This document shows, piece by piece, positions 1 through 34,535 of a stretch of DNA of 35,552 nt. The DNA is from a virus. The stretch covers positions 1 to 35,552 of IMG/VR virus record IMGVR_UViG_3300018041_000024, one strand, 5' to 3'. Each line of letters opens with the position of its first letter. Positions within the stretch are counted from its first letter, which is position 1. A model generated the notes under the pieces. That model had not been told where the DNA came from, did not search any database, and saw only the letters and a program-made list of their open reading frames with translations. Position numbers and translations under genes: made by a program.

Positions 1-3000
1 CGATTCGGCCCTGCCAGAAAACCAGACATCCCTTGCTAGAGGATTTGGCAGTATTTGTAGAATGTCGCCCTGGAAGAGGAATGCAGGGATGTAGTTCATC
101 TCAGCCAGCTGCTCTGCTATCTGCTTGTTGCCTAGTGCAGCGTAAACTTCCTGCCCACCAACACGCTTCATTGGAGTCGCAGATGGGACTACCCCACGAA
201 GCAGCATGTAGGTCTCTTGAATCCTCATAGCGTGCAAAGTTAGGTCTTGGATTGCAGCATCCTTATTAGGGATATTTGACTTTTCTACGTAGTCTTTGAC
301 TCTTGTGATTAGCTGACCAAAGCCTGTGTACTGGCTAAGGATTTCGTAGCTTTCCTTGATTCCAATCTTCTTGTCGCCCTGCTCAATAATCTTTGTGGTT
401 GTTCCGTACAGGTCATCGTGGTAAACCTTGACCGCATTCTGCCGCTCAACAAAGAAGTTCCTGAAGCCAGGGCCAAGTGATACCAAAGCCTCGTCTACAA
501 GCCAGCCGTAGCCACGAGCGTGTGCGAGAGAGATTAGGTCTTCGTACTGAGCCTTAAAGTTATTGAGGAACTCAAGGCGGTCTTCCCTAGTAAGCTGAGC
601 AAGAGCTTGGATTGTTTCGTCTGCATCTGTTGGATGGAAGCCAGCACGAGCGATTGCATTATCCTGCTCCATAAGCTGCTTCTCAGCTTGAGTGATTAGT
701 TCTTCAGTCTTACGAACCCAGTTCCGCAGGTTCCTGTCATTTGGAATTGTGCCTGCTTTGGCAGCTGCCACAGCTGGCCCGTAATTGTAATTGGCAAGCA
801 CGTTTCTAACTTGCTCTGCGGTTACTTCAGAAGAACGCTGCTTGAAAGCCTCGATAACATCAACGCCCCTCTTGAAAGGAGTCTTACCGCCTTCTATTCT
901 GCGCTTCAGCAGCTCATTGACCAGCAGTCCCCAGTCGCCAATTTCTTCGTCGGCAACGACTCGCATTGTCGCAATCTTGCGCAGCAAGTCTCTGGGGTTT
1001 TCGCTGACAATTACATCGGCAACTTCAAGGTTCTCTACGCCTTTCTTTGGACGCTTAAAGCCCTTCTTGGCTAGCGAAGCATCAACCTTCTTAAGGGTTG
1101 CTTCAAATGCCTGCTTCTCTTTCTGAAGACCGTCGGCAGTCTTAAACCTAGTGGTCTGCAGCTGAGCTTCTTTTAGCAGTCGGGACTCAATGTCCCTACC
1201 GACTGTAAACCTAGCCATGATGGCTTCTGCGAACATGGCAGAACGAGCTTTTTCTGGCGAAGTACGGGTGGCAACCTCTGCAGCACCTTCCTTTGTCAGC
1301 CTTGCTGGCCAAATGGCATCTAGGAACTCTTCGGCTCTCTGCCTTGTAGCGCCCTTCTTACCAAGCACTTGAGCTTGCCTAGATACGCCCTCTGTGTACT
1401 TCTTTAGCGCACCACCAAGAGGAACGCCAGCATTCTTTAGCTCTTGTGCCCAAGCGTACTTAAATCGGCGCTCGCTAGCTGGGGCCTTAAGCAGGGCCTC
1501 AACTCGCTTTCTAGCGTTCTGGTTAGCGAGGGTAAGCTCGTTACCTTTTAGATTTGGGCTAATCTTTGGCACAACGCCCATTCTGCGAAGAAGTGGAAGT
1601 TCTAGTTTGTATAGCCCTGCTACAACTGCTTTCCATTCTGCATCGTCTTTTACCAAGACGGCTGCTGTGTCATCAATAATGTCATCGGCAAGCTTGAAGT
1701 CAATTCTGTCTTGAATGACAGTAAGCGCCCTATCGCGTTCCTGCTCAATCAAAGCAGCGCTCAGGGTGTTGAAGCCGCGGTTCTTTGTGCCTAGGGCCTT
1801 CTCGCCACCCTTGCTAATGTTGCGGGCTACGTCGGTCAGGAGACCAACAGTAAGCCCCTCCCCGTCCCAAGTGCTGGCTCTGTCTAGCAGCAGTGTTTCA
1901 ATCTCTCCAGGAATCTTGGGCATTTCTGCGCCCTGCAAAACAACTTCGTCTACATAGTCAGCAAAGCGGCCACCATCAATAGAGCCCTTTAGCCTGCTAA
2001 CCCTGTAGGCCTCAGCGATAAATTCAGCTGTGTTGTCTACTTCTAGACCTTCTGGGCCTGTGCTCGTGAGGGTATCACGGATGCCTCGAATCTTGCCAGC
2101 GCTAGAGCCGACAGCCTCTAGACCAGAGTTCTTGACCTCAGCAGGCAAGTCTCTGTATGCGCTTACGTGCGCGGTTAATGCTCCGTCTAGCTCCTTAGCT
2201 AGCTGGTCAATTCTCTTTTTTGACATCTGGCCAAATCCAGGGTAAAGCTGGGCGGCAGTGTCTTCAATCCTCTTAAGGTCAGCAGCGACTTTGTTGGTTG
2301 GGATTTGGATATAGTCTGCGAGATTTAGCTGGCCTAGCCTAGCGTTGAAGGCTTTGGCTGTAACAGCCTTTGAAGAAAGCCTTGCAGACATAAAGGTCAG
2401 CGTTTCTAGCGCCTCTGTAGCCTTTGCCTGCAGCTCCCTATAGGTAAGGCTGTGGATGTCTTTTACGCCAGCCTCTTTGAGTATTGCGACAATCTCTGTT
2501 GGGTAAGCGTCCTCACCAGCATTTGTCAGTCTTCTAACAATGTCAGTACGCCCACCGGAACCTGCCTGTGTCGTAGGGTAGTTGCTGAACAGAGCTGGCT
2601 CTGGCTCAATAGTTATCGGGTTGTAGCCCTCCCTACCAGCTATTTCGAGGTTGCCATAGTCCCTGTTGACTCTTTGGGTTTCCCTGACAGCTAGGATTCG
2701 CAGACGCTCGCCAGCAACCCTAAACTGACCCTGCAGCGCGTCTTCTAGTTTTTTACCATCGACATCATCTGCAGTCATCTTGGCCAGCGGCTTGCCGACC
2801 GCTTCTTCTAGCCTGCCCCTAGCTTCGTCGATTACATCAGCTAGCTCAGTTGGCCTAGCTGCCTCTTCTCCCTTGACACCCTTGCCTTTTGTAGCCTTAG
2901 GAGCGCGACGGGTAAGCTCGCCCTTAACAAGGCCAGACAGCTCCCTGACCTGCTGCGTGGTTAGCCCACCATCCTTGCCAGTTGGCAGAGGAGAGAACAT

Positions 3001-4542
3001 TTCCTTAAGTGCAGCTGTTTTAGTCGTCTTAGAAATAGCCTTTTCGTCTGTTGCTCTAAAGCCATCCCAGAAGCTAGCGACTGAGCCCTCGACATCCTGA
3101 GCTTCTACAAGCCTGTCGCCAAGGTCGTTTACAGCCTCTGTTCTAATAGTTCTTCCTGGCTGCTTTGAAACAACTGGAACCTGATTCCTAATTGTCCTAG
3201 CCGTATCCCTAGCCACCAAGGCACGAAGTCTGGCTGGCTTTTCAGCTTGCGGAACTGCAGCTAGCTCGTCAGCGTACCTCTTGGCCTCAGCCTGCATTTT
3301 TGCGATAGCTTCAGGGGTTAGTTCTGCTTCTCTAATGCCAGCAAATTTTGCCTCAAGTAGCTGCTCTATCTCAGCATCTGTTTGCTTAGCGACCTTACGG
3401 TCTTTAGCCCTTTGTGCTAGCGAGCGCCGACTTTCCCTAAGAATTGACTCGGCTTCGTCATAAAGCATTTTTGCGGTTACATTGGCAGGGTCGATGCCGT
3501 TTTCGGTTAGCTTAAATAGCGATGCCCTGAGTATGTTTGTACCACTCTGTCTGTTTACCCTAGCTACTCGGCGGTTTACGCTTCTTGCCCGCACGGCCTG
3601 GAACGATGACTTGTAGCCGCGTGCCATTTCCTTACCGATAAAGGTAAGTGGGCTAGTGTCTAGAGCATTGTAAGCAACTGCGGCATCAGGGCTTGCTTTT
3701 GCTAAATCTGCAGATGGAACCTGTCTTGCTGGGTCTAGCTCTGGGTACAAAGGCTTAGGGGCAAAAGCCTCCTTTGGAACTCCTGGTTTTGCTTTTTTGG
3801 CAGCAGCAGCAAGCTGCACACCTGACTTCAGCCCTTTAGCCGCACCACCCAGTCCAATAGGCAGGAAGCTAATTGGGTCTGTCAGTACATCGAAGCCAAA
3901 TGAGTACAGGCCAGCTTTTGTAAACTCCAGGCCTTTGCCCTTTTCGATACCAAGGAACGGCACATCAAAGCCAATCCATTCGTCGGGGATGCCCCAGCCT
4001 ACGCCCTCTTCTTTAGTGGCCTCTGCTAGGAACGGTAGGTTCTTTGAAGCATCCTGAAAGTCCTCGGACTTGAAAAGCTCGTAAGCACCCTCGTAGGTGT
4101 CGCCGCCAAAGATGCTGTTTAGCTGGTTGCGGCTCTCCTGAGTGGGGGGCATGAATGAGTAAGCAAAGCCCTTAGCGAAGCCCCCTAGCCCACTCCAGGT
4201 GGCATTTGCGGCTGCACCAAATACCTTGGGCAAGTCATCTGGCTGAATGCCGTCTTCTAGGTTGTCATAAATCTGATTGGCGTACGGGAGGACGTTACCC
4301 GCATAGTTAACGATTCCTCTGCCTAGGCTTGTCAGGCCACGCATGAACCCGCCAAAAATATTGACGGCACCGATAGCAGGGTCGCCTATACCGGTAGGGA
4401 CTGCAGTGGTTTGATAGCGGGCTTCTCCAGGAATCGGAGCAATAGAGGAAACTCCAGCAGTAGGCGCAGTAAGCCCAGTAGAAGTCCGAGCAGATTGCAC
4501 GGTTTCTAGGAGCTTACGGATATCCTCGCTCTTGCTAGCCAC
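1..4542 (-). CDS. Giant virion protein, probable internal/DNA-ejection type (C-terminus outside window)
   Basis: An uninterrupted minus-strand frame of 1514 codons runs from a GTG at 4542 off the left edge. The start (V-A-S-K-S-E-D-I-R) lies 12 bp after the stop of the preceding gene and lacks a clear Shine-Dalgarno. The first ~250 residues are Gly/Ala-rich with hydrophobic stretches such as GFDVLTDPISFLPIG. The rest is charged, mostly helical-looking and rich in Ala, Glu, Lys and Arg. No catalytic motif was recognised in the visible part. It is the last visible gene of the head/tail operon and by far the largest. In short-tailed phages such giants are often internal virion (T7 gp16-like) or polyvalent proteins ejected with the DNA. 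That role is inferred from size and position only. Many plus-strand frames here are shadows. Confidence 0.8.
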   Translation of the reverse strand, partial: MASKSEDIRKLLETVQSARTSTGLTAPTAGVSSIAPIPGEARYQTTAVPTGIGDPAIGAVNIFGGFMRGLTSLGRGIVNYAGNVLPYANQIYDNLEDGIQPDDLPKVFGAAANATWSGLGGFAKGFAYSFMPPTQESRNQLNSIFGGDTYEGAYELFKSEDFQDASKNLPFLAEATKEEGVGWGIPDEWIGFDVPFLGIEKGKGLEFTKAGLYSFGFDVLTDPISFLPIGLGGAAKGLKSGVQLAAAAKKAKPGVPKEAFAPKPLYPELDPARQVPSADLAKASPDAAVAYNALDTSPLTFIGKEMARGYKSSFQAVRARSVNRRVARVNRQSGTNILRASLFKLTENGIDPANVTAKMLYDEAESILRESRRSLAQRAKDRKVAKQTDAEIEQLLEAKFAGIREAELTPEAIAKMQAEAKRYADELAAVPQAEKPARLRALVARDTARTIRNQVPVVSKQPGRTIRTEAVNDLGDRLVEAQDVEGSVASFWDGFRATDEKAISKTTKTAALKEMFSPLPTGKDGGLTTQQVRELSGLVKGELTRRAPKATKGKGVKGEEAARPTELADVIDEARGRLEEAVGKPLAKMTADDVDGKKLEDALQGQFRVAGERLRILAVRETQRVNRDYGNLEIAGREGYNPITIEPEPALFSNYPTTQAGSGGRTDIVRRLTNAGEDAYPTEIVAILKEAGVKDIHSLTYRELQAKATEALETLTFMSARLSSKAVTAKAFNARLGQLNLADYIQIPTNKVAADLKRIEDTAAQLYPGFGQMSKKRIDQLAKELDGALTAHVSAYRDLPAEVKNSGLEAVGSSAGKIRGIRDTLTSTGPEGLEVDNTAEFIAEAYRVSRLKGSIDGGRFADYVDEVVLQGAEMPKIPGEIETLLLDRASTWDGEGLTVGLLTDVARNISKGGEKALGTKNRGFNTLSAALIEQERDRALTVIQDRIDFKLADDIIDDTAAVLVKDDAEWKAVVAGLYKLELPLLRRMGVVPKISPNLKGNELTLANQNARKRVEALLKAPASERRFKYAWAQELKNAGVPLGGALKKYTEGVSRQAQVLGKKGATRQRAEEFLDAIWPARLTKEGAAEVATRTSPEKARSAMFAEAIMARFTVGRDIESRLLKEAQLQTTRFKTADGLQKEKQAFEATLKKVDASLAKKGFKRPKKGVENLEVADVIVSENPRDLLRKIATMRVVADEEIGDWGLLVNELLKRRIEGGKTPFKRGVDVIEAFKQRSSEVTAEQVRNVLANYNYGPAVAAAKAGTIPNDRNLRNWVRKTEELITQAEKQLMEQDNAIARAGFHPTDADETIQALAQLTREDRLEFLNNFKAQYEDLISLAHARGYGWLVDEALVSLGPGFRNFFVERQNAVKVYHDDLYGTTTKIIEQGDKKIGIKESYEILSQYTGFGQLITRVKDYVEKSNIPNKDAAIQDLTLHAMRIQETYMLLRGVVPSATPMKRVGGQEVYAALGNKQIAEQLAEMNYIPAFLFQGDILQILPNPLARDVWFSGRAES

Positions 4543-11711: not shown

Positions 11712-13751
11712 TTACTGTTGTGGTTGTGCCTGTTGTGGCGGCATTGCGCCTAGTTGCATCTGCTGTATTTGAGCAGCCTGCAAAGCCGCAAGTGCCATTT
11801 CGTGCATGTCGATGTGCTTGTTCAACTCTGCCTTTTGGCTGTTGCTTAGCAAGTCGTATGCTGGGCTCTTGCGGAAGTTGTCGTGCTCCTGAATGTGGAC
11901 GGCGTGGTTATCCCACTTGTTTACAGGAACAATTGCTGGTGGCTTTAGAGGAGCACCGGTGTCTGGGTTAACCATCTCTGGGTTGCCCATCTCAACACCC
12001 TGCTGCCATCTCTGGTAGTGACGCATTACGTCCATCTCGCCAAGAGACTTGAACATTACGTTCTCACGCTGAGCACGAAGCTCGTCTGGCCTTGTGCCAC
12101 GGTTGTCCGTGTAACGGCTGAGTGTTGCAATGTCAAGAAGCTCTAGCCCCTCCTCTGGCGGAACTAGGCCAAGTCTCATCATGTCCATAACCAAAGCTTG
12201 CTTTGCAGCCTTGGAGGTTGGAAGTGCTGAGCCAGCTTCGATTCTGATGTCGGTGCCTCGCGCTATGTCGGCACCGCTAAACATTTCAGCAGAGAAGCCG
12301 TTGTTGTCACCGACTACCTTTACCGTGCGCTCGCCGCTCCAGTATTCTGCAGCTAGCATTAGTGCGCATCTTGCGACTCTTGACAGGCCCTCTTCTACCG
12401 AAGCAAAGGTTGGAGCCATGTAGCTGTCGTCACGCTCTTGCAAGTAAGCAATCGCAGTAGCCGCCTCAACGCCTGGAGGCGTGCTTCCCCTTGAGACTTC
12501 GTGCTGACCAGAGATGTTCTCTAGGTCTGTGTCTAGTGCCTGCAGCTCCTCTGATACGTAAGGAGGTAGCTGAGGCATTGGGGCGGCTGCTGGATATTCG
12601 AATCCAGGACGCACCCCGATGTACTGTCCTGGAGACGTGTTTATCTTGGACACGGTTAGCGAACCTTCGCGGTAGTAAACCTGAGGCTTTGCCATCATGT
12701 TCTTAGCCTGGATGCGCTGAGAGCGGGTTCTGTTTACCTCACGCTGCAGCGGGATTACATCGTCAATAACACAAGCTGGGTAGTACTGCCCGCTTGGGAT
12801 GTGCTCAAACTTAACGATTGGGTAGCCCTTGTATCCAGCAGGGAATCCTGTTAGTGAAGCCTCGACAATAACGTCGTCAACAATCGTGACGTAGCCACCC
12901 TGCGGCAACAGGTTGGTAGTTCCTGGCTTTACCCAAGCCTCGATAACCAAGCTGGCATCTGGCTTGCTGTTGTTTTCCCTGATGTCAAGAGCAGAAGAAA
13001 TATCTGCAATTTCTGTTGCGGCTACTACGGTCGGCTGCTTGTCCTTAGGGATAAGGTCGCCGTAGGTCATCTTTAGCCACTCAATAGTCTTTGTATAGAC
13101 GTGGAGTACATACGGCTGGTCTTCGTGCTCAACGATTGACAGGTCTGGGACAAAGACGTTGAAGGGAGAAATGTGGTCTACGCAGACGTCACCCTCTTGG
13201 TCGCTCCATTCGTCATACTTCCCAGAGTCCCAATAGACCTTCATATATCCCAAACCAAGAACAGATATATCACGGGCTACTAGGCGCATTGTGCGTCCTA
13301 CGCTGAGGCGGTCATAAAGACTGTCCCAGACCTGTGTCGCTGCAGTTGCGGCAAATACATCTTCTACATCATTGGATGCTGGCAAACAGACGGCCGATGG
13401 CTTCTGGGATGTCAGCTTTGCAATCTCAGTCCTGACGATAGGACGGATTTTGTTAATGCTAATGCGAGGGGTGTTCTTGTCTCCACGGGGGAGCTGAGAC
13501 AACCCACTCTTAGTTGAGTCCCAAGCTACGTACTGCTTGCCACGCTCAAACGACATGTTCATGTACCACTGGCGAACACGCCACTGCTTGGCGTCCTTGG
13601 ACTTCTGGTATTCCTTCTTTAGGTAATCAACGAGCTTTTTTCCCTTGTCCGACTTCTGGAGCTTCTTTAGCTCAGCGTCATCAAGTAGCCCAGTATTTGC
13701 AGTCTCTTCGACTTCAATTTCAAGTTCAGCGACTGCGTTACTGGATGCCAT
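11712..13751 (-). CDS. Portal protein (P22-like family)
   Basis: The product is 679 residues from the ATG at 13751 (M-A-S-S-N-A-V), 14 bp inside the end of the preceding gene. In-frame ATGs at 13778, 13784 and 13790 are alternatives: GAGG lies 9 nt before 13784, whereas AAAGGAA lies very close to 13751, so the start is uncertain. Portal hallmarks include W-R-V-R-Q-W-Y-M-N near the N-terminus, RISINKIRPIVRTEIAKL, the long beta-rich wing, and a stem helix segment with D-D-V-I-P-L-Q-R-E-V-N-R-T-R-S-Q. A Gln-rich barrel-like C-terminus (QQAQPQQ) follows. It sits after TerL and before scaffold. It forms the dodecameric DNA channel and the terminase dock. Confidence 0.9.
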   Translation of the reverse strand: MASSNAVAELEIEVEETANTGLLDDAELKKLQKSDKGKKLVDYLKKEYQKSKDAKQWRVRQWYMNMSFERGKQYVAWDSTKSGLSQLPRGDKNTPRISINKIRPIVRTEIAKLTSQKPSAVCLPASNDVEDVFAATAATQVWDSLYDRLSVGRTMRLVARDISVLGLGYMKVYWDSGKYDEWSDQEGDVCVDHISPFNVFVPDLSIVEHEDQPYVLHVYTKTIEWLKMTYGDLIPKDKQPTVVAATEIADISSALDIRENNSKPDASLVIEAWVKPGTTNLLPQGGYVTIVDDVIVEASLTGFPAGYKGYPIVKFEHIPSGQYYPACVIDDVIPLQREVNRTRSQRIQAKNMMAKPQVYYREGSLTVSKINTSPGQYIGVRPGFEYPAAAPMPQLPPYVSEELQALDTDLENISGQHEVSRGSTPPGVEAATAIAYLQERDDSYMAPTFASVEEGLSRVARCALMLAAEYWSGERTVKVVGDNNGFSAEMFSGADIARGTDIRIEAGSALPTSKAAKQALVMDMMRLGLVPPEEGLELLDIATLSRYTDNRGTRPDELRAQRENVMFKSLGEMDVMRHYQRWQQGVEMGNPEMVNPDTGAPLKPPAIVPVNKWDNHAVHIQEHDNFRKSPAYDLLSNSQKAELNKHIDMHEMALAALQAAQIQQMQLGAMPPQQAQPQQ

Positions 13752-14061
13752 ATTCCTTTCGGACGGCGTCGAAATCATACTCATCTTCATCTACCTCAGG
13801 ATAGTTATCGTTTACCAGAACTGCTTGCTCTGGGTTTGGTGCTGTTGGTACTCCGCTTGCCGCCATTATCTGTTGGAACGCTAGCGGGTCTCTCGACGAC
13901 AGCAGGTTCACTGTTGTCTTCAAGAGGTTGGTCGTCTCCAAAGTGGTCGAGATTAGCCCCTGAGTTGCTTTGTTCAGGCTTTTCGTCATTAGCCAGAACG
14001 ACAGGGGTAGGCTCACTAAGAAGGTCAGCAGTAACACTAATAGAGATGTCTCTAATGTCAT
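13738..14061 (-). CDS. Small membrane protein overlapping its neighbour in another frame
   Basis: The product is 107 residues. An N-terminal transmembrane helix (LLVLLLTFLVSLPLSFWLM, about residues 7-25) is followed by a helical segment and an acidic tail ending D-F-D-A-V-R-K-E-Y-G-I-Q. About 257 bp lie inside the upstream gene in a different reading frame. The reading is supported by an AAAGG 7 nt before its ATG, the hydrophobic helix, and a stop that runs into the portal start. Small membrane proteins at this site could be holin-like or membrane-anchored assembly factors. Neither can be decided here. Confidence 0.65.
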   Translation of the reverse strand: MTLETSLLVLLLTFLVSLPLSFWLMTKSLNKATQGLISTTLETTNLLKTTVNLLSSRDPLAFQQIMAASGVPTAPNPEQAVLVNDNYPEVDEDEYDFDAVRKEYGIQ

Positions 14062-14335
14062 TTACAAGCCTTTCCGTCACCGCAGGTATGCGGTCTAGTC
14101 TCTTTTTGAGTTGTTCGTTTTCTGTGCGTAGCGCATTTGTTACATCCGGCGTTGCAAAACCCATTTGTTCTGCGAGCGCCGCAAAGATGCCGTAGCTTAA
14201 ATATACTCTTCCGTAATACTCAGCTTCAGCACCCAAGTCAATCAGTGGAGCGTCGGGCTTACCCGTAACTCCCGTGACAATACAGCGATGCGGGGCATAT
14301 TGCCCTCGCTCTACTATTCTAAATGTTCTAGCCAT
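13805..14335 (-). CDS. Conserved phage protein of unknown function, between TerL and portal
   Basis: The product is 176 residues from the ATG at 14335, which overlaps the TerL TAA (TAATG) and has AGGA 8 nt upstream. The earlier ATG at 14344 sits directly against AGG. Residues 1-55 look folded and conserved (RTFRIVERGQYAPHRCIVTG). A coiled-coil follows at about residues 70-105, and the last ~70 residues are disordered and Ser/Pro/Asn-rich. That disordered tail is exactly the part overlapped by the membrane-protein gene in another frame. Function unknown; its location suggests packaging or portal assembly. Confidence 0.75.
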   Translation of the reverse strand: MARTFRIVERGQYAPHRCIVTGVTGKPDAPLIDLGAEAEYYGRVYLSYGIFAALAEQMGFATPDVTNALRTENEQLKKRLDRIPAVTERLVNDIRDISISVTADLLSEPTPVVLANDEKPEQSNSGANLDHFGDDQPLEDNSEPAVVERPASVPTDNGGKRSTNSTKPRASSSGKR

Positions 14336-15849
14336 TATTCCCATCCTACAGCATCATCGGAGGATGACCGGAACTTCCAGCCCGAATATCCAGGGTCTTT
14401 TCGATTATCGAACTGAGCAATCGGAGGCGTATCATCAAAGTCCATAAGCCTCTCCTTTAGTCCCTTGATTGTTTCTGGAGTTAGGTCATCCATTAGTGTG
14501 AAAAAGTATCTCGACGAATCGAAAGCGTGATTGTCCTTATCTTGTATCTCCTCTAGTTTGTTTAGTGTGAACTCTTGTTGCCTGTTGGCACGCCGCTTGT
14601 ATTTAAGTTTAGAAAGCTCGGAAATCAGGTTAGGACAGTCGTCAGTTACCTGCCACCAAGGTCTGCCCGTGTCTGGATTTGGCTTCATGTATTGCTGCAT
14701 CTTGTTCAAACCTACACCTATTTGTCTAGGAATGATGTCAATTATGATATTCATTCCGTGGAGGTTGAACTCCTGCTGATAGCTTGTGCCTTTTACGCCG
14801 TTTGTCTGCGAAAGAGCAGGGTCGCCTACAACCAGATACGGCTCTACACCTAGCTCTTTGTTCTTTCGGTGGAAGACCTCAGCGTGCTCAGCAATGGTCA
14901 TTTGGGACTGGTAGTGCTCAGCAAAGGTAACGATGTGTCCATCAGGTGCAACGGCGTGCCACAAGATTGCAGTGGGGTCTCGCCAGCCGTAATCAACGCT
15001 GACATAAATCCTGTGCTTTCTGGACAGCTTAAATTTCTCAGGGGGAATAGTGTGCGTCAGCTGATTGAACTCTTTGAAGACTGCACCACCTACCTGAATG
15101 AACTGACCCTTTTCACGGATAGCTCGCTGCTCTGGAGTCAGAGAGGACAGGTAGTCCTCAATAGCTCCAGGGTCTAGGTAGGGGTTGTCCGACATCTCAA
15201 CTTCGGTTACGCCGAACTGAGGGTGACCTTCCTTGCCAGGCAGATAGACCTGCTCGTAGATGTACTCCATGCCCTCAACTGGAGTCAGCGTCATCCACCA
15301 ATCTCCGTTTGTGTCAACTAGACGAGCACGGCATTCGTCGTACACTAATTCTGGCGGCTCCTCGTCGAAGTGGACGAAATGCCTAGATGTTCCGGCGAAC
15401 TTCTGCAAGTCCTGGTCGTAGGACATAAACTCGACGAAGGAGCCGTTCTCAAGCTTGAGGACTCTTCGTTCTTTGCTATAGCTGTCTTCCCATGAGCCGT
15501 TAACTAACAGGCTTTTAGGCATCCACTGAGCAAACTGAGGCAGAAGAATTTTGTCGATACCAGAGGCAAAGTCAACGCCGACGACACGCCCACGCACTGG
15601 TACCTCTGGAACTTTGCGGTGTGGATGCTCGCCTTTTAGATAACGGATATCCTCCACCACCCCAGCGACTGTCTTACCGGAACGGTTACCGCCAATGTAA
15701 AGGCGGTGCTTGTGCTGGTCTTTTGCGAAGTCTTCTTGCTTCTGGTGCGGCTTGTACCTGTTTAGGTTAGGCATGATTGACGTCGTGCGAATCTGCTCCG
15801 ACATTCGGTACAGAACCTCGGCTGGGTTTATCTGCTTTTGCCTAGCCAT
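14335..15849 (-). CDS. terL: Terminase large subunit
   Basis: The product is 504 residues. The ATPase domain has Walker A GGNRSGKT (53-60), Walker B HFVHFDEE (157-164) and the coupling motif T-L-T-P (187-190). The RNase H-like nuclease domain has Asp286 (VSVDYGWRDPT), Asp343 (VVGDPA) and Asp444 (DNHAFDSSRYF). It cuts concatemers and pumps DNA through the portal. The ATG at 15849 overlaps the resolvase gene by 8 bp and the TAA overlaps the next ATG. The small subunit is not adjacent; a candidate HTH protein lies at 20792 on the other strand. Complete and of usual length. Confidence 0.95.
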   Translation of the reverse strand: MARQKQINPAEVLYRMSEQIRTTSIMPNLNRYKPHQKQEDFAKDQHKHRLYIGGNRSGKTVAGVVEDIRYLKGEHPHRKVPEVPVRGRVVGVDFASGIDKILLPQFAQWMPKSLLVNGSWEDSYSKERRVLKLENGSFVEFMSYDQDLQKFAGTSRHFVHFDEEPPELVYDECRARLVDTNGDWWMTLTPVEGMEYIYEQVYLPGKEGHPQFGVTEVEMSDNPYLDPGAIEDYLSSLTPEQRAIREKGQFIQVGGAVFKEFNQLTHTIPPEKFKLSRKHRIYVSVDYGWRDPTAILWHAVAPDGHIVTFAEHYQSQMTIAEHAEVFHRKNKELGVEPYLVVGDPALSQTNGVKGTSYQQEFNLHGMNIIIDIIPRQIGVGLNKMQQYMKPNPDTGRPWWQVTDDCPNLISELSKLKYKRRANRQQEFTLNKLEEIQDKDNHAFDSSRYFFTLMDDLTPETIKGLKERLMDFDDTPPIAQFDNRKDPGYSGWKFRSSSDDAVGWE

Positions 15850-31602: not shown

Positions 31603-32652
31603 TTAGAACACATCGCTATACGTGTGTTTAGTAGACACTAAGTCGCCCGACTTAGTGACATTGCCATAGTCCAACAGGCTTACGCCTGGCTCTTGGGCTA
31701 TGAAGTATAACTCGTTGACCCACCACTCTCTATCTTCTTCTGGATAGTAGAGAAAGTTGCTGGCCTGCTCGATGTCTTCCTTGACCTCTATCCAATACTT
31801 GTTGGGAGGACTAGAGACCTCGGGGGTAGCCAATGCTTTTGGGAACTCCCAATCCTCCTCATCGTCCCATACATCGAACTCGTCAAGGTAGACATTAGTT
31901 GAGTCTTTGGCACCGGAAGTCTGGTGACGGTAGTAGTTGTAGTTGTAGGCACCGTAACCTGAGTTCTGTGGCTCGGGTAGCATCTGTGTACTGTTGATAA
32001 TGCCGTGCTTGATTGTGTAGTAGTCAAGCTCGCTAGGCTCGTGCATCCATGTGGGCACGAGGTCAAGCTGAATAAGTACACGCCATAGCAACTGCTCGGT
32101 ACTAGCAAAGACGAACGAGCCGTCCTCGATGTGTGCAACACATAGCGGTGAGTGCTGATACCTAGCAAGGTGCAAGGTGTCAGGGTCACGGCGGTCAAGC
32201 CATGCAATAGCGGCATCGCCGTCAAGACGGTCAATGCTGGCAATACCGTGTTGCTCGATAGTAGCTGGAATAACACTGGTGTCAACAGCTGGCAACTGGC
32301 ATGAGATAGTCGTACGCACTTGGTCGTGGTTGTAGATGACACCGTTGTGTACGAGTGCAATGTTGCCGTCAGGTGAGATAACTGGATGATTGTTGCGGTT
32401 GTCGTGGACTGAACCGTGGGTAGCAAGACGGGTATGCAAGATAACCGTGCGTGCTTTGCGAGGCAGGAACTTGAGTGACAAGCTACTGCCGGGCTGTGGT
32501 GCTGAGTGGTAACCCATAGCACCGTCATGTGAATAGGCAAAGCCAGATGCCATGTAGCCTCTGTCTTCGATAGCCGTCAACATAGCGTTAGCTAGCTGGC
32601 GGGACTTGACTTTGGAATTGGGTGTCAAGCTGAACCCTGCAATACCACACAT
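31603..32652 (-). CDS. Class-II (Ntn) glutamine amidotransferase
   Basis: The product is 349 residues. Glutaminase-domain features: catalytic Cys2 (M-C-G-I-A-G-F), RGYMASG (31-37), HTRLATHG (73-80), NNHPV (87-91), H-N-G (102-104), Asp124 in V-D-T-S, and GDAAIAWLD (145-153). These are as in the GlmS, PurF and YafJ groups. It frees ammonia from glutamine; the initiator Met must be removed to expose Cys2. The C-terminal ~130 residues are acidic and aromatic with no known synthetase domain, so the acceptor enzyme is separate. The amidoligase gene directly upstream (66-bp gap) is the likely partner. AAAGGAG lies 8 nt before the ATG. Confidence 0.88.
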   Translation of the reverse strand: MCGIAGFSLTPNSKVKSRQLANAMLTAIEDRGYMASGFAYSHDGAMGYHSAPQPGSSLSLKFLPRKARTVILHTRLATHGSVHDNRNNHPVISPDGNIALVHNGVIYNHDQVRTTISCQLPAVDTSVIPATIEQHGIASIDRLDGDAAIAWLDRRDPDTLHLARYQHSPLCVAHIEDGSFVFASTEQLLWRVLIQLDLVPTWMHEPSELDYYTIKHGIINSTQMLPEPQNSGYGAYNYNYYRHQTSGAKDSTNVYLDEFDVWDDEEDWEFPKALATPEVSSPPNKYWIEVKEDIEQASNFLYYPEEDREWWVNELYFIAQEPGVSLLDYGNVTKSGDLVSTKHTYSDVF

Positions 32653-32718: not shown

Positions 32719-34422
32719 TTAGCACTCGGTTGCGCTCATGTCATAGTAAGTAAGCGACTTGTCCGCAAACAGCTGGTTGCTGGGCATCTCGGTACCGTAC
32801 TTGCGGAGTAGGGCAATGACATCATCGAGTTGACGGCAAGCAGTCCATTCGCGTTGGGCAATACCTAGTTTGGATACATTGACCATTTCACGAACGAACC
32901 ATGCCCACCTAACGAGATAGTCATAGTCATACCATGGCCCCATAGCACGGAACTCGATAGTGCCGTGGTGTCTGAGGGCATGGAGATTTACATCAGAGTA
33001 CCTGTCTTGTGGCGAGTCATTGACTAGGTCACGAGGACTAGGTACTGAGTCGGGGTGGAGGTTGCGATACTTGCGTACCTGTTGTAGCCACCACCTGAGA
33101 GTGTCAACAGTAGTTGGCCTGCAATAGTTGCGTACTTGCCTACGATAGATAGGCTCGAGCAACTTCTCGATGATTGAGTAGTTGAGTAGCAACCTACTGA
33201 CATCAGCAATACTGAGGTCACCGGCACCGACATGGACATGGATACCCGGCGAGGTATCTTCGTCCTCTCTGGCACCTAAGTCACCGCATAGCTTGCGCAA
33301 GCCACGACTGTTGTAAGACTCGAGGATAGGTGAGACATACTCACGGCCAGACATACTGTTCGTGCAATCGTCATACTCGCAATGTTCGCCGTTGTAGCAA
33401 TCATCGCAATCGCAATCGCAACCGCATGACAATGAGCCGTCATCTTTGTCTTCCCAACCTATTGGCCTAGATGTCTCGTTGGCACGGACAGTCTCAATCT
33501 CTATACCCCATGTGCGACTGGCATCGGTGCCAGTGTCAGCAAGTGGGATAGCTTGCCATGAGGCATAAGCCGCATCAGCAGGCTGAGGTGTAGTGGCCTT
33601 GATTGTCTCCCAGAACTTGGTAAACCGCTCGCCAGACTGTTGTAGTTTGAGCCTGTCAATGCGTGCTTGCCTAGTAGTCTGCTCTGACAGCAGTTGACTG
33701 CGTAGTGAGAAGATGTCACTGGTATCTAGCTTGATAGCAGAGCCACGAGCATACTGCTCGAGTATCGTATTGACACGAGCAATAGTCAGGTGCTGAGTCA
33801 GCCCCAATCGAATGTCCCATTGGTAATTCTCGTGGTTACTCGCAAAGCTAATGCCGTAAGCATCAGATAGCTTGTCACGAAGTGAATCCATGACGTTCTG
33901 CCGTCTGCTGAGCCAGACAGCGCGGTCGACAATGCCAACTGATGGATTGCCGGTATGTTCGTTGCGTAGCTTGGGCTCGGTAAAGACAAGAGGCAGATAG
34001 GCTTGGTCGTCCTCGTAGCCAGGAACAGGCGATAGTATCTCTGATAGCTCGCGAACAACTGATTCACGAGATAGCTTGTAATACCGACCGAGGTACTGAC
34101 TAGGGAACTTGATGTCAAGGCCCGAGTGCTTGTATCTGCCGTCCCAACTACTGTCAACGATAAGCCGTGGCAATGCTTTCATAAACGCTTGCGTCCATTG
34201 GTAGCTACGCAAGATGTACTTAGCAGTTGCCTCTGCTTGCTCGAATGACTCTATTGAGTCCATGAGCTTGATATTGTCAATGTCAATAGGCCGAGTGCCG
34301 TAACTGCGAACAGCATCGTCGGAATAACGATAGCGATTGCTAAGAACATTGTTGAGACGCTCGAGGCAATCTGCTGAGTTGCTGGCATCGTCATAGATAG
34401 TGACATCATCAACGGTGAACAT
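32719..34422 (-). CDS. Amidoligase (COOH-NH2 ligase family) with Cys-rich insert
   Basis: The product is 567 residues from the ATG at 34422 (M-F-T-V-D-D-V), with GGAGG 6 nt upstream. A longer frame from 34503 would start inside a repeated control element. Family motifs: W-G-I-E-I-E (305-310), D-D-G-S-L (327-331), G-R-E-Y-V-S-P (359-365), G-I-H-V-H-V-G (393-399) and H-G-T-I-E-F-R (486-492). These match the glutamine-synthetase-like COOH-NH2 ligases (Amidoligase_2 type), which join a carboxylate to an amine using ATP. Residues 333-353 hold seven Cys (333, 335, 337, 339, 342, 348, 353), a probable metal-binding insert. The N-terminal 300 residues match nothing recognised and may choose the substrate. 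Confidence 0.85.
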   Translation of the reverse strand: MFTVDDVTIYDDASNSADCLERLNNVLSNRYRYSDDAVRSYGTRPIDIDNIKLMDSIESFEQAEATAKYILRSYQWTQAFMKALPRLIVDSSWDGRYKHSGLDIKFPSQYLGRYYKLSRESVVRELSEILSPVPGYEDDQAYLPLVFTEPKLRNEHTGNPSVGIVDRAVWLSRRQNVMDSLRDKLSDAYGISFASNHENYQWDIRLGLTQHLTIARVNTILEQYARGSAIKLDTSDIFSLRSQLLSEQTTRQARIDRLKLQQSGERFTKFWETIKATTPQPADAAYASWQAIPLADTGTDASRTWGIEIETVRANETSRPIGWEDKDDGSLSCGCDCDCDDCYNGEHCEYDDCTNSMSGREYVSPILESYNSRGLRKLCGDLGAREDEDTSPGIHVHVGAGDLSIADVSRLLLNYSIIEKLLEPIYRRQVRNYCRPTTVDTLRWWLQQVRKYRNLHPDSVPSPRDLVNDSPQDRYSDVNLHALRHHGTIEFRAMGPWYDYDYLVRWAWFVREMVNVSKLGIAQREWTACRQLDDVIALLRKYGTEMPSNQLFADKSLTYYDMSATEC

Positions 34423-34485
34423 ACTCACCTCCTTTTTCTTCAGATAGTTATTGGACATCGCCGTCAAACAACAGCGACACATAGT

Positions 34486-34535
34486 AACGAAATTTGCCAG
34501 CACCTAGTTCTACTCGAGGGCAGGGCTGTGGTGCT
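34486..34535 (-). promoter_or_regulatory. Amidoligase leader: repeated element C
   Basis: AACGAAATTTGCCAGCACCT (34486-34505, plus one more A) is exactly repeated at 35206-35226. AGCACC (34499-34504) can pair with GGTGCT (34530-34535) around a loop holding the short C-element CCCTCGAGTAGAA (34508-34520, minus strand). It lies between the LexA box at 34549 and the amidoligase start. Confidence 0.6.

Follow-up and report, generated by a model that had tools for sequence, protein, structure and literature searches.

An embedded gene with a predicted membrane-tethered product between the large terminase and portal genes of podovirus-type phages

In one virus genome, a first-pass annotation pointed out a 107-aa frame that lies largely inside another gene, between the genes for the large terminase (TerL) and the portal protein, and that encodes a membrane helix. 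Is this frame a gene, and if so, what might a membrane protein be doing among genes for head assembly and DNA packaging? By the window we mean the whole stretch analysed, a virus record of 35,552 bases whose minus strand carries a head block of podovirus type. Besides the genes listed here, the block holds an acidic ORF, which may be the scaffold, the major capsid protein and an SU10-type adaptor. We call the two overlapping genes up (the upstream member) and mem (the embedded one).

14335..15849, minus strand: TerL gene, large terminase (ORF list; Pfam Terminase_6N)
13805..14344, minus strand: up gene, 179 aa, upstream member of the pair (ORF list)
14069..14075, minus strand: Shine-Dalgarno sequence of mem, GGAAAGG, with a 7-nt spacer to the ATG, within the conserved up motif TERLVNDIR
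13738..14061, minus strand: mem gene, 107 aa, with an N-terminal transmembrane (TM) helix, a helical linker with the motif SRDPLAFQQ and an acidic C-terminal tail
13805..14061, minus strand: dual-coding overlap of up and mem, 257 bp, with mem in the +1 frame of up
13754..13760, minus strand: likely Shine-Dalgarno sequence of the portal gene, GAAAGGA, within the conserved mem C-terminus RKEYGI
11712..13790, minus strand: portal gene, P22-like, ORF as listed (Pfam P22_portal)

Layout of the locus and its relatives

The first-pass annotation had the length of the frame, its coordinates, the extent of the overlap and the difference in frame right; the strand, which it left unstated, is minus. It had also placed the pair between TerL and portal, and the two Pfam families flank it there. 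Since the mem start is 283 nt into up (283 mod 3 = 1), mem is in the +1 frame, and the ribosome site of its own that had been claimed for it lies 7 nt 5' of its ATG. Translation of up likely starts at the ATG at 14335, giving a 176-aa version that overlaps the TerL stop as TAATG, and that of the portal gene likely starts at an ATG at 13751, inside the end of mem. Because the ribosome binding sites of mem and of the portal gene each fall within the previous gene, up, mem and portal form a chain. For the same reason the conservation of TERLVNDIR, which holds the Shine-Dalgarno sequence and start of mem, and of RKEYGI, which holds those of the portal gene, is not attributable to protein function alone. 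In 66 of 96 loci mem and the start predicted for the portal gene overlap; in 11 the two are at most 50 nt apart, and in 19 farther.

Direct tblastn searches of annotated phages with the window's mem and up gave no matches, so we collected related loci through TerL, with which both IMG/VR and annotated phages were searched. In a profile scan of 162 loci, TerL was found in 161, up in 152 and mem in 134, and the frame offset was +1 in all 134 profile-matched up/mem pairs. With the mem profile left unused, 149 of 149 eligible loci, that is, loci with a related TerL, a matched up and enough sequence, had a +1 frame that, read from stop to stop, shares 100 nt or more with the end of up; duplicate fetches are counted here. 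The count covered 166 loci. Seventeen were ineligible: nine without a matched up (six with less than 100 nt after TerL, and L113, L114 and L157 with another neighbourhood), three ending inside the overlap, and five weak relatives from a genome scan with TerL for prophages, which stood outside the TerL profile search. L032 (the window's own TerL) and L163 and L164 (whole genomes of phages already counted) were omitted. Because the same contig was sometimes fetched twice, the numbers of distinct sequences are below the locus counts: 96 mem proteins, 97 up proteins and 113 TerL sequences in the tree. Both frames are conserved in homologous loci, very distant ones among them; this was a check that the first-pass annotation had proposed. 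Stops in the 107-aa frame of close relatives, which it had named as evidence against the gene, were looked for and none was found; the frame is open.

In none of 87 sequences does the remaining third frame stay open throughout the overlap. Codon resampling of 84 of these 87, using the up protein and TerL codon usage, gave a median probability of 0.065 that mem stays open when up is fixed; with mem fixed, the probability for up was 0.03. At a median of 0.065, a single genome taken alone would be weak evidence.

The first-pass annotation considered the position of such a gene unexpected. The slot is standard in a large phage group and not peculiar to the window genome. The distant TerL relatives EBPR podovirus 1, PaP3, HTVC115P and ctype202 have no up or mem between TerL and portal; in these four the interval contains nothing annotated, or small genes that are seemingly unrelated. 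In one subclade (L016, L018, L019, L020 and L022), an extra gene of about 104-106 aa, starting MGIMA(S/T)GAWQR, lies between TerL and up.

Database records mostly miss the embedded gene. In the records of Brad, Adat, DS1 and Jasmine (two records) the embedded frame carries no CDS, and the record of Casserole has none for the embedded gene, as judged from its annotation and not from the frame itself. In Shocker, mem is annotated as gp19, whose start is placed 99 nt into the full ORF (5874 versus 5775 in L035), and in ctEqG8 the CDS begins 141 nt into the mem frame (6023 versus 5882) and up is unannotated. In both Jasmine records (KU160650.1, L179; NC_041875.1, L176) the gene numbering passes from 13 to 15 exactly at the embedded gene, as though a called gene 14 had later been dropped. 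We did not find this overlap arrangement described in the literature searched, whose coverage excluded most subscription journals. To our knowledge, head operons of tailed phages offer few documented cases of a long out-of-frame overlap that has persisted over deep time. For spanin genes, PMC6139136 states that gene callers are biased against overlapped genes.

Elsewhere in the window, on the minus strand, positions 1-4542 hold an incomplete ORF of at least 1514 aa; the matching frame in a relative, G001, has 2768 aa, with endolysin-like genes nearby. An amidoligase-like gene (32719-34503, minus strand; Pfam Amidoligase_2, E 2.3e-13) adjoins an ORF with an MCGIAGFS start (31603-32652, minus strand), which we take to be a glutamine amidotransferase from its appearance.

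Selection on the two frames

Within the overlap, position 2 of a mem codon is position 3 of an up codon, and position 3 of a mem codon is position 1 of an up codon, so the two frames predict opposite patterns of substitution. We compared divergence by codon position in three clades with the TM helix (12, 12 and 8 sequences, the sequence pairs being non-independent) and in one clade of 7 sequences whose embedded protein is without it. From the part of up before the overlap to the part inside it, divergence at up third positions falls from 0.582 to 0.22, from 0.608 to 0.372 and from 0.581 to 0.23 in the three TM clades, and from 0.58 to 0.239 in the TM-less clade. The mem protein is conserved at its own first and second codon positions. 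Its third positions in the overlap diverge by 0.368, 0.489, 0.429 and, in the TM-less clade, 0.452, and those of TerL in the same four clades by 0.492, 0.518, 0.524 and 0.52. Since the mem third positions are below those of TerL, up is constrained there too, though only mildly in the L025 clade (0.489 versus 0.518).

A comparison of the window with L005 gives an example. TerL differs at 226 of 1515 nt (15%), the up-only part at 35 of 283 and the overlap at 10 of 257. Every one of these 10 changes is at a third position of mem, leaving mem identical and the tail of up changed.

Judged by these patterns, purifying selection is acting on both frames across the overlap, and mem is the more constrained of the two. 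On this comparative evidence the observation is confirmed: mem behaves as a real gene, and dual coding of the 257 bp is supported.

The two proteins and the lineage without a membrane helix

The membrane helix reported for the window's mem is clear, with a best 19-residue Kyte-Doolittle mean of 2.38, starting from residue 7. The predicted structure has a helix at residues 2-55 followed by short second and third helices, with a low-confidence stretch between those two, so that the model is essentially a single helix. Lysine and arginine together average 0.01 before the TM helix and 2.23 in the 15 residues after it, and in 86 of 87 sequences the final 50 residues are acidic. The predicted topology is N-out/C-in, with a cytoplasmic helix and acidic tail, although the charge rule is weak evidence here because few residues precede the helix. 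A recognisable form of the motif SKDPxxFQQ is found widely across mem proteins. Of the 96 distinct mem proteins, 83 start with ATG; a Shine-Dalgarno match of at least 4 nt precedes 87 of the 96, against 17.7% of 4939 sampled ATGs, a comparison biased by the use of this signal in picking the starts. A programmed frameshift fusion of mem was considered and rejected: 64 of the 96 picked starts are at most 5 codons from an in-frame stop, and the helix begins nearby.

The model of up has a small beta domain and then a long helix, confident to about residue 105, followed by a tail predicted to be disordered. The overlap corresponds to the end of this long helix and to the tail, whose pLDDT of 51-57 from about residue 111 to 179 agrees with the disorder that the first-pass annotation had suspected in the overlapped part. 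In 82 of the 97 distinct up proteins two CxxC pairs mark a zinc-ribbon-like domain. The pairs have been lost, with the reading frame kept, in the other 15, from several lineages that include the window with its nearest kin and the Jasmine group; the window's own up is therefore without the zinc-ribbon signature.

Neither protein acquired a family name, as no convincing match to up or mem was found in Pfam, PHROGs, NCBIfam or PADLOC. Most up proteins share the CxxC...CxxC spacing of the ClpX C4-type zinc finger (PF06689), but the best member scored 18.8 bits (E 0.0015), below the curated cut-off of 27; the ATPase of ClpX is absent from up, and the cysteines are gone in the window lineage. Sequence searches of the PDB returned weak matches only, for up chiefly to coiled-coil proteins. 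A fold search with the up model gave no PDB match at E up to 0.001, a best VIA Z of 3.2 and one unnamed viral protein of 175 residues at E 4.3e-5.

In 14 loci the same embedded +1 place holds a protein without a strong hydrophobic helix, in most cases with a glutamine-rich heptad-like stretch and an acidic tail.

TM-less loci: L036, L098, L099, L128, L129, L134-L137, L139, L146, L150, L152, L158

These proteins are likened to mem by position, frame and their homologous up genes; a profile comparison of the TM and TM-less embedded proteins was not significant (probability 0.4%). In a quick TerL tree a single branch (SH-aLRT 99) separates the 13 distinct TM-less rows from 100 TM rows, so one change of the trait suffices. 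L070, whose helix scores 1.55, was counted as without TM in the 166-locus count. Ten of the 96 mem proteins have no strong helix, several of these being internal starts picked by rule; when frames are read from stop to stop, values below 1.6 are confined to L070 and the 14 TM-less loci. The TM-less lineage argues that the essential part is the cytoplasmic one, and not a membrane lesion.

The outlying relative L157 (35% TerL identity to L031) has no up gene. An 81-aa ORF (3999-4283 region) begins at its TerL stop, with a hydrophobic helix (1.78) at the N-terminal end and an acidic tail; after it comes a long portal-looking ORF, beginning 229 nt after TerL. The small ORF does not match the mem profile significantly (E 0.96), but may be an analogue of mem, and L157 is a caution that the TerL-portal slot can hold a mem-like gene by itself.

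This bears on the order of origin, where the first-pass annotation took up for the older frame. Of 84 sequences, 72 have overlap codons closer to TerL usage when read as up than when read as mem, and the share of T at third positions of up climbs from 0.31 to 0.60 over the stretch encoding the TM helix; these TerL-like codons and the doubling of T fit an origin of mem by overprinting on up. Against an up-first origin stand the stronger constraint on mem, the small TM gene found without up in L157, and the distant TerL relatives that have neither gene. Codon usage speaks for the claim, and these other observations speak against it.

Possible roles of the embedded protein

We hold with good confidence that the 257-bp overlap belongs to a dual-coding gene whose product has a membrane-tethered cytoplasmic domain; this confidence covers the gene and the domain, and is separate from any partner or role. 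Its translation and topology we infer from sequence. As we picture it, up and mem would be made by separate initiation, mem from the internal Shine-Dalgarno sequence and ATG in the +1 frame. The product would have an N-out/C-in anchor, a helix or coiled coil in the cytoplasm and an acidic tail, and would tether or recruit a partner encoded beside it, either the portal, TerL or the zinc-ribbon protein, for head initiation or packaging at the membrane. In the anchor-less lineage an oligomeric coiled coil would do the recruiting. A tether or adaptor of this kind is our best explanation because of the location in the head block, the adjoining or overlapping portal start, and the cytoplasmic coiled region with its acidic tail; we put it forward tentatively, partly by analogy. 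The small phi29 protein p16.7 is N-terminally anchored, has a coiled coil facing the cytoplasm and binds DNA. The mem protein resembles it in size, anchor and coiled coil, and differs in its acidic tail and its place in a head operon. T4 gp40 is described (PMC9958956) as a chaperone for the membrane-bound portal initiator gp20. It is thus a phage factor tied to membrane-associated portal assembly, an analogy to mem by description only; unlike gp40, mem is embedded in another gene and adjoins the portal gene.

Among the other explanations, the most credible, if still doubtful, is that mem, instead of serving in assembly, is a membrane protein of the virion or one that is ejected, or else acts in superinfection exclusion. 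A membrane anchor and a gene within the structural block would suit such a protein; the acidic, probably cytoplasmic tail with its coiled coil and the existence of the TM-less lineage would not, and nothing specific favours it.

The first-pass annotation had mentioned a holin-like or a membrane-bound assembly protein; the assembly protein remains the best guess, while the holin finds no support. A holin or antiholin that happens to sit in a head operon would, like mem, be small, with one hydrophobic helix and a charged C-terminus. However, the helix is missing in a whole lineage with an embedded gene in the same place, orthology being judged by position, and relatives have separate lysis genes, which together make a holin unlikely. 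Brad has an annotated holin, gp28, beside lysin A, gp27, and in the window relatives G001 (M23 peptidase) and G003 (CHAP protein) small TM ORFs, without a Pfam family match, adjoin the endolysin-like genes; mem is not located with the endolysin in any of the three. phiX174 is an ssDNA phage. Its D/E pair offers the likeness of a hydrophobic, leucine-rich protein read in another frame, but E is the lysis protein of a small phage (PMC8227390), and mem belongs to the packaging operon of a tailed dsDNA phage.

Somewhat less probable still is a mainly regulatory overlap, in which +1 translation sets the level of portal or up and the mem protein itself is minor. The Shine-Dalgarno sequence and start of mem inside up, and the likely portal signal inside mem, would allow this; the conservation of mem at first and second codon positions, and its identity at 15% TerL divergence, tell against it.

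It is very improbable that the two genes are spanin-like, a two-component lysis pair of the embedded type known from Rz/Rz1. In inner-membrane spanins the charges are arranged in the opposite way to mem, where positive charges follow the helix. None of the 96 mem and none of the 97 up proteins has a lipobox-like motif, and this absence of a lipoprotein signal contradicts a spanin pair. The window's up has no strong hydrophobic helix (best score 1.19), and the pair does not adjoin the lysis genes in Brad or in G001 and G003. An embedded or overlapped +1 layout is known for spanins, and the Rz/Rz1 genes of lambda, T7 and P2 (PMC6139136) resemble mem in encoding a small envelope protein in a +1 frame that gene callers often miss. 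They differ in that up and mem carry no lipoprotein signal and lie outside a lysis cassette, that the host gene of mem encodes a soluble protein of zinc-ribbon type, and that TM-less versions of mem exist. Least credible of all is a frame left open by chance through the codon bias of up, which the per-sequence open-frame probability given above would permit in a lone genome, but which the substitution pattern and the conservation in 149 of 149 loci contradict.

Returning to the tether or adaptor, we can suggest, as a more speculative extension, that the overlap itself is functional. The up, mem and portal proteins would then be made in a fixed order and ratio and would assemble co-translationally at the membrane, as a so far unrecognised portal- or packaging-initiation module of these podoviruses in which the anchor is exchangeable for a coiled coil. 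The overlap is present in every eligible relative, yet is mostly omitted or 5'-shortened in annotations. As cultured phages carry the pair, the role of a membrane-tethered protein in portal or packaging assembly would be directly testable.
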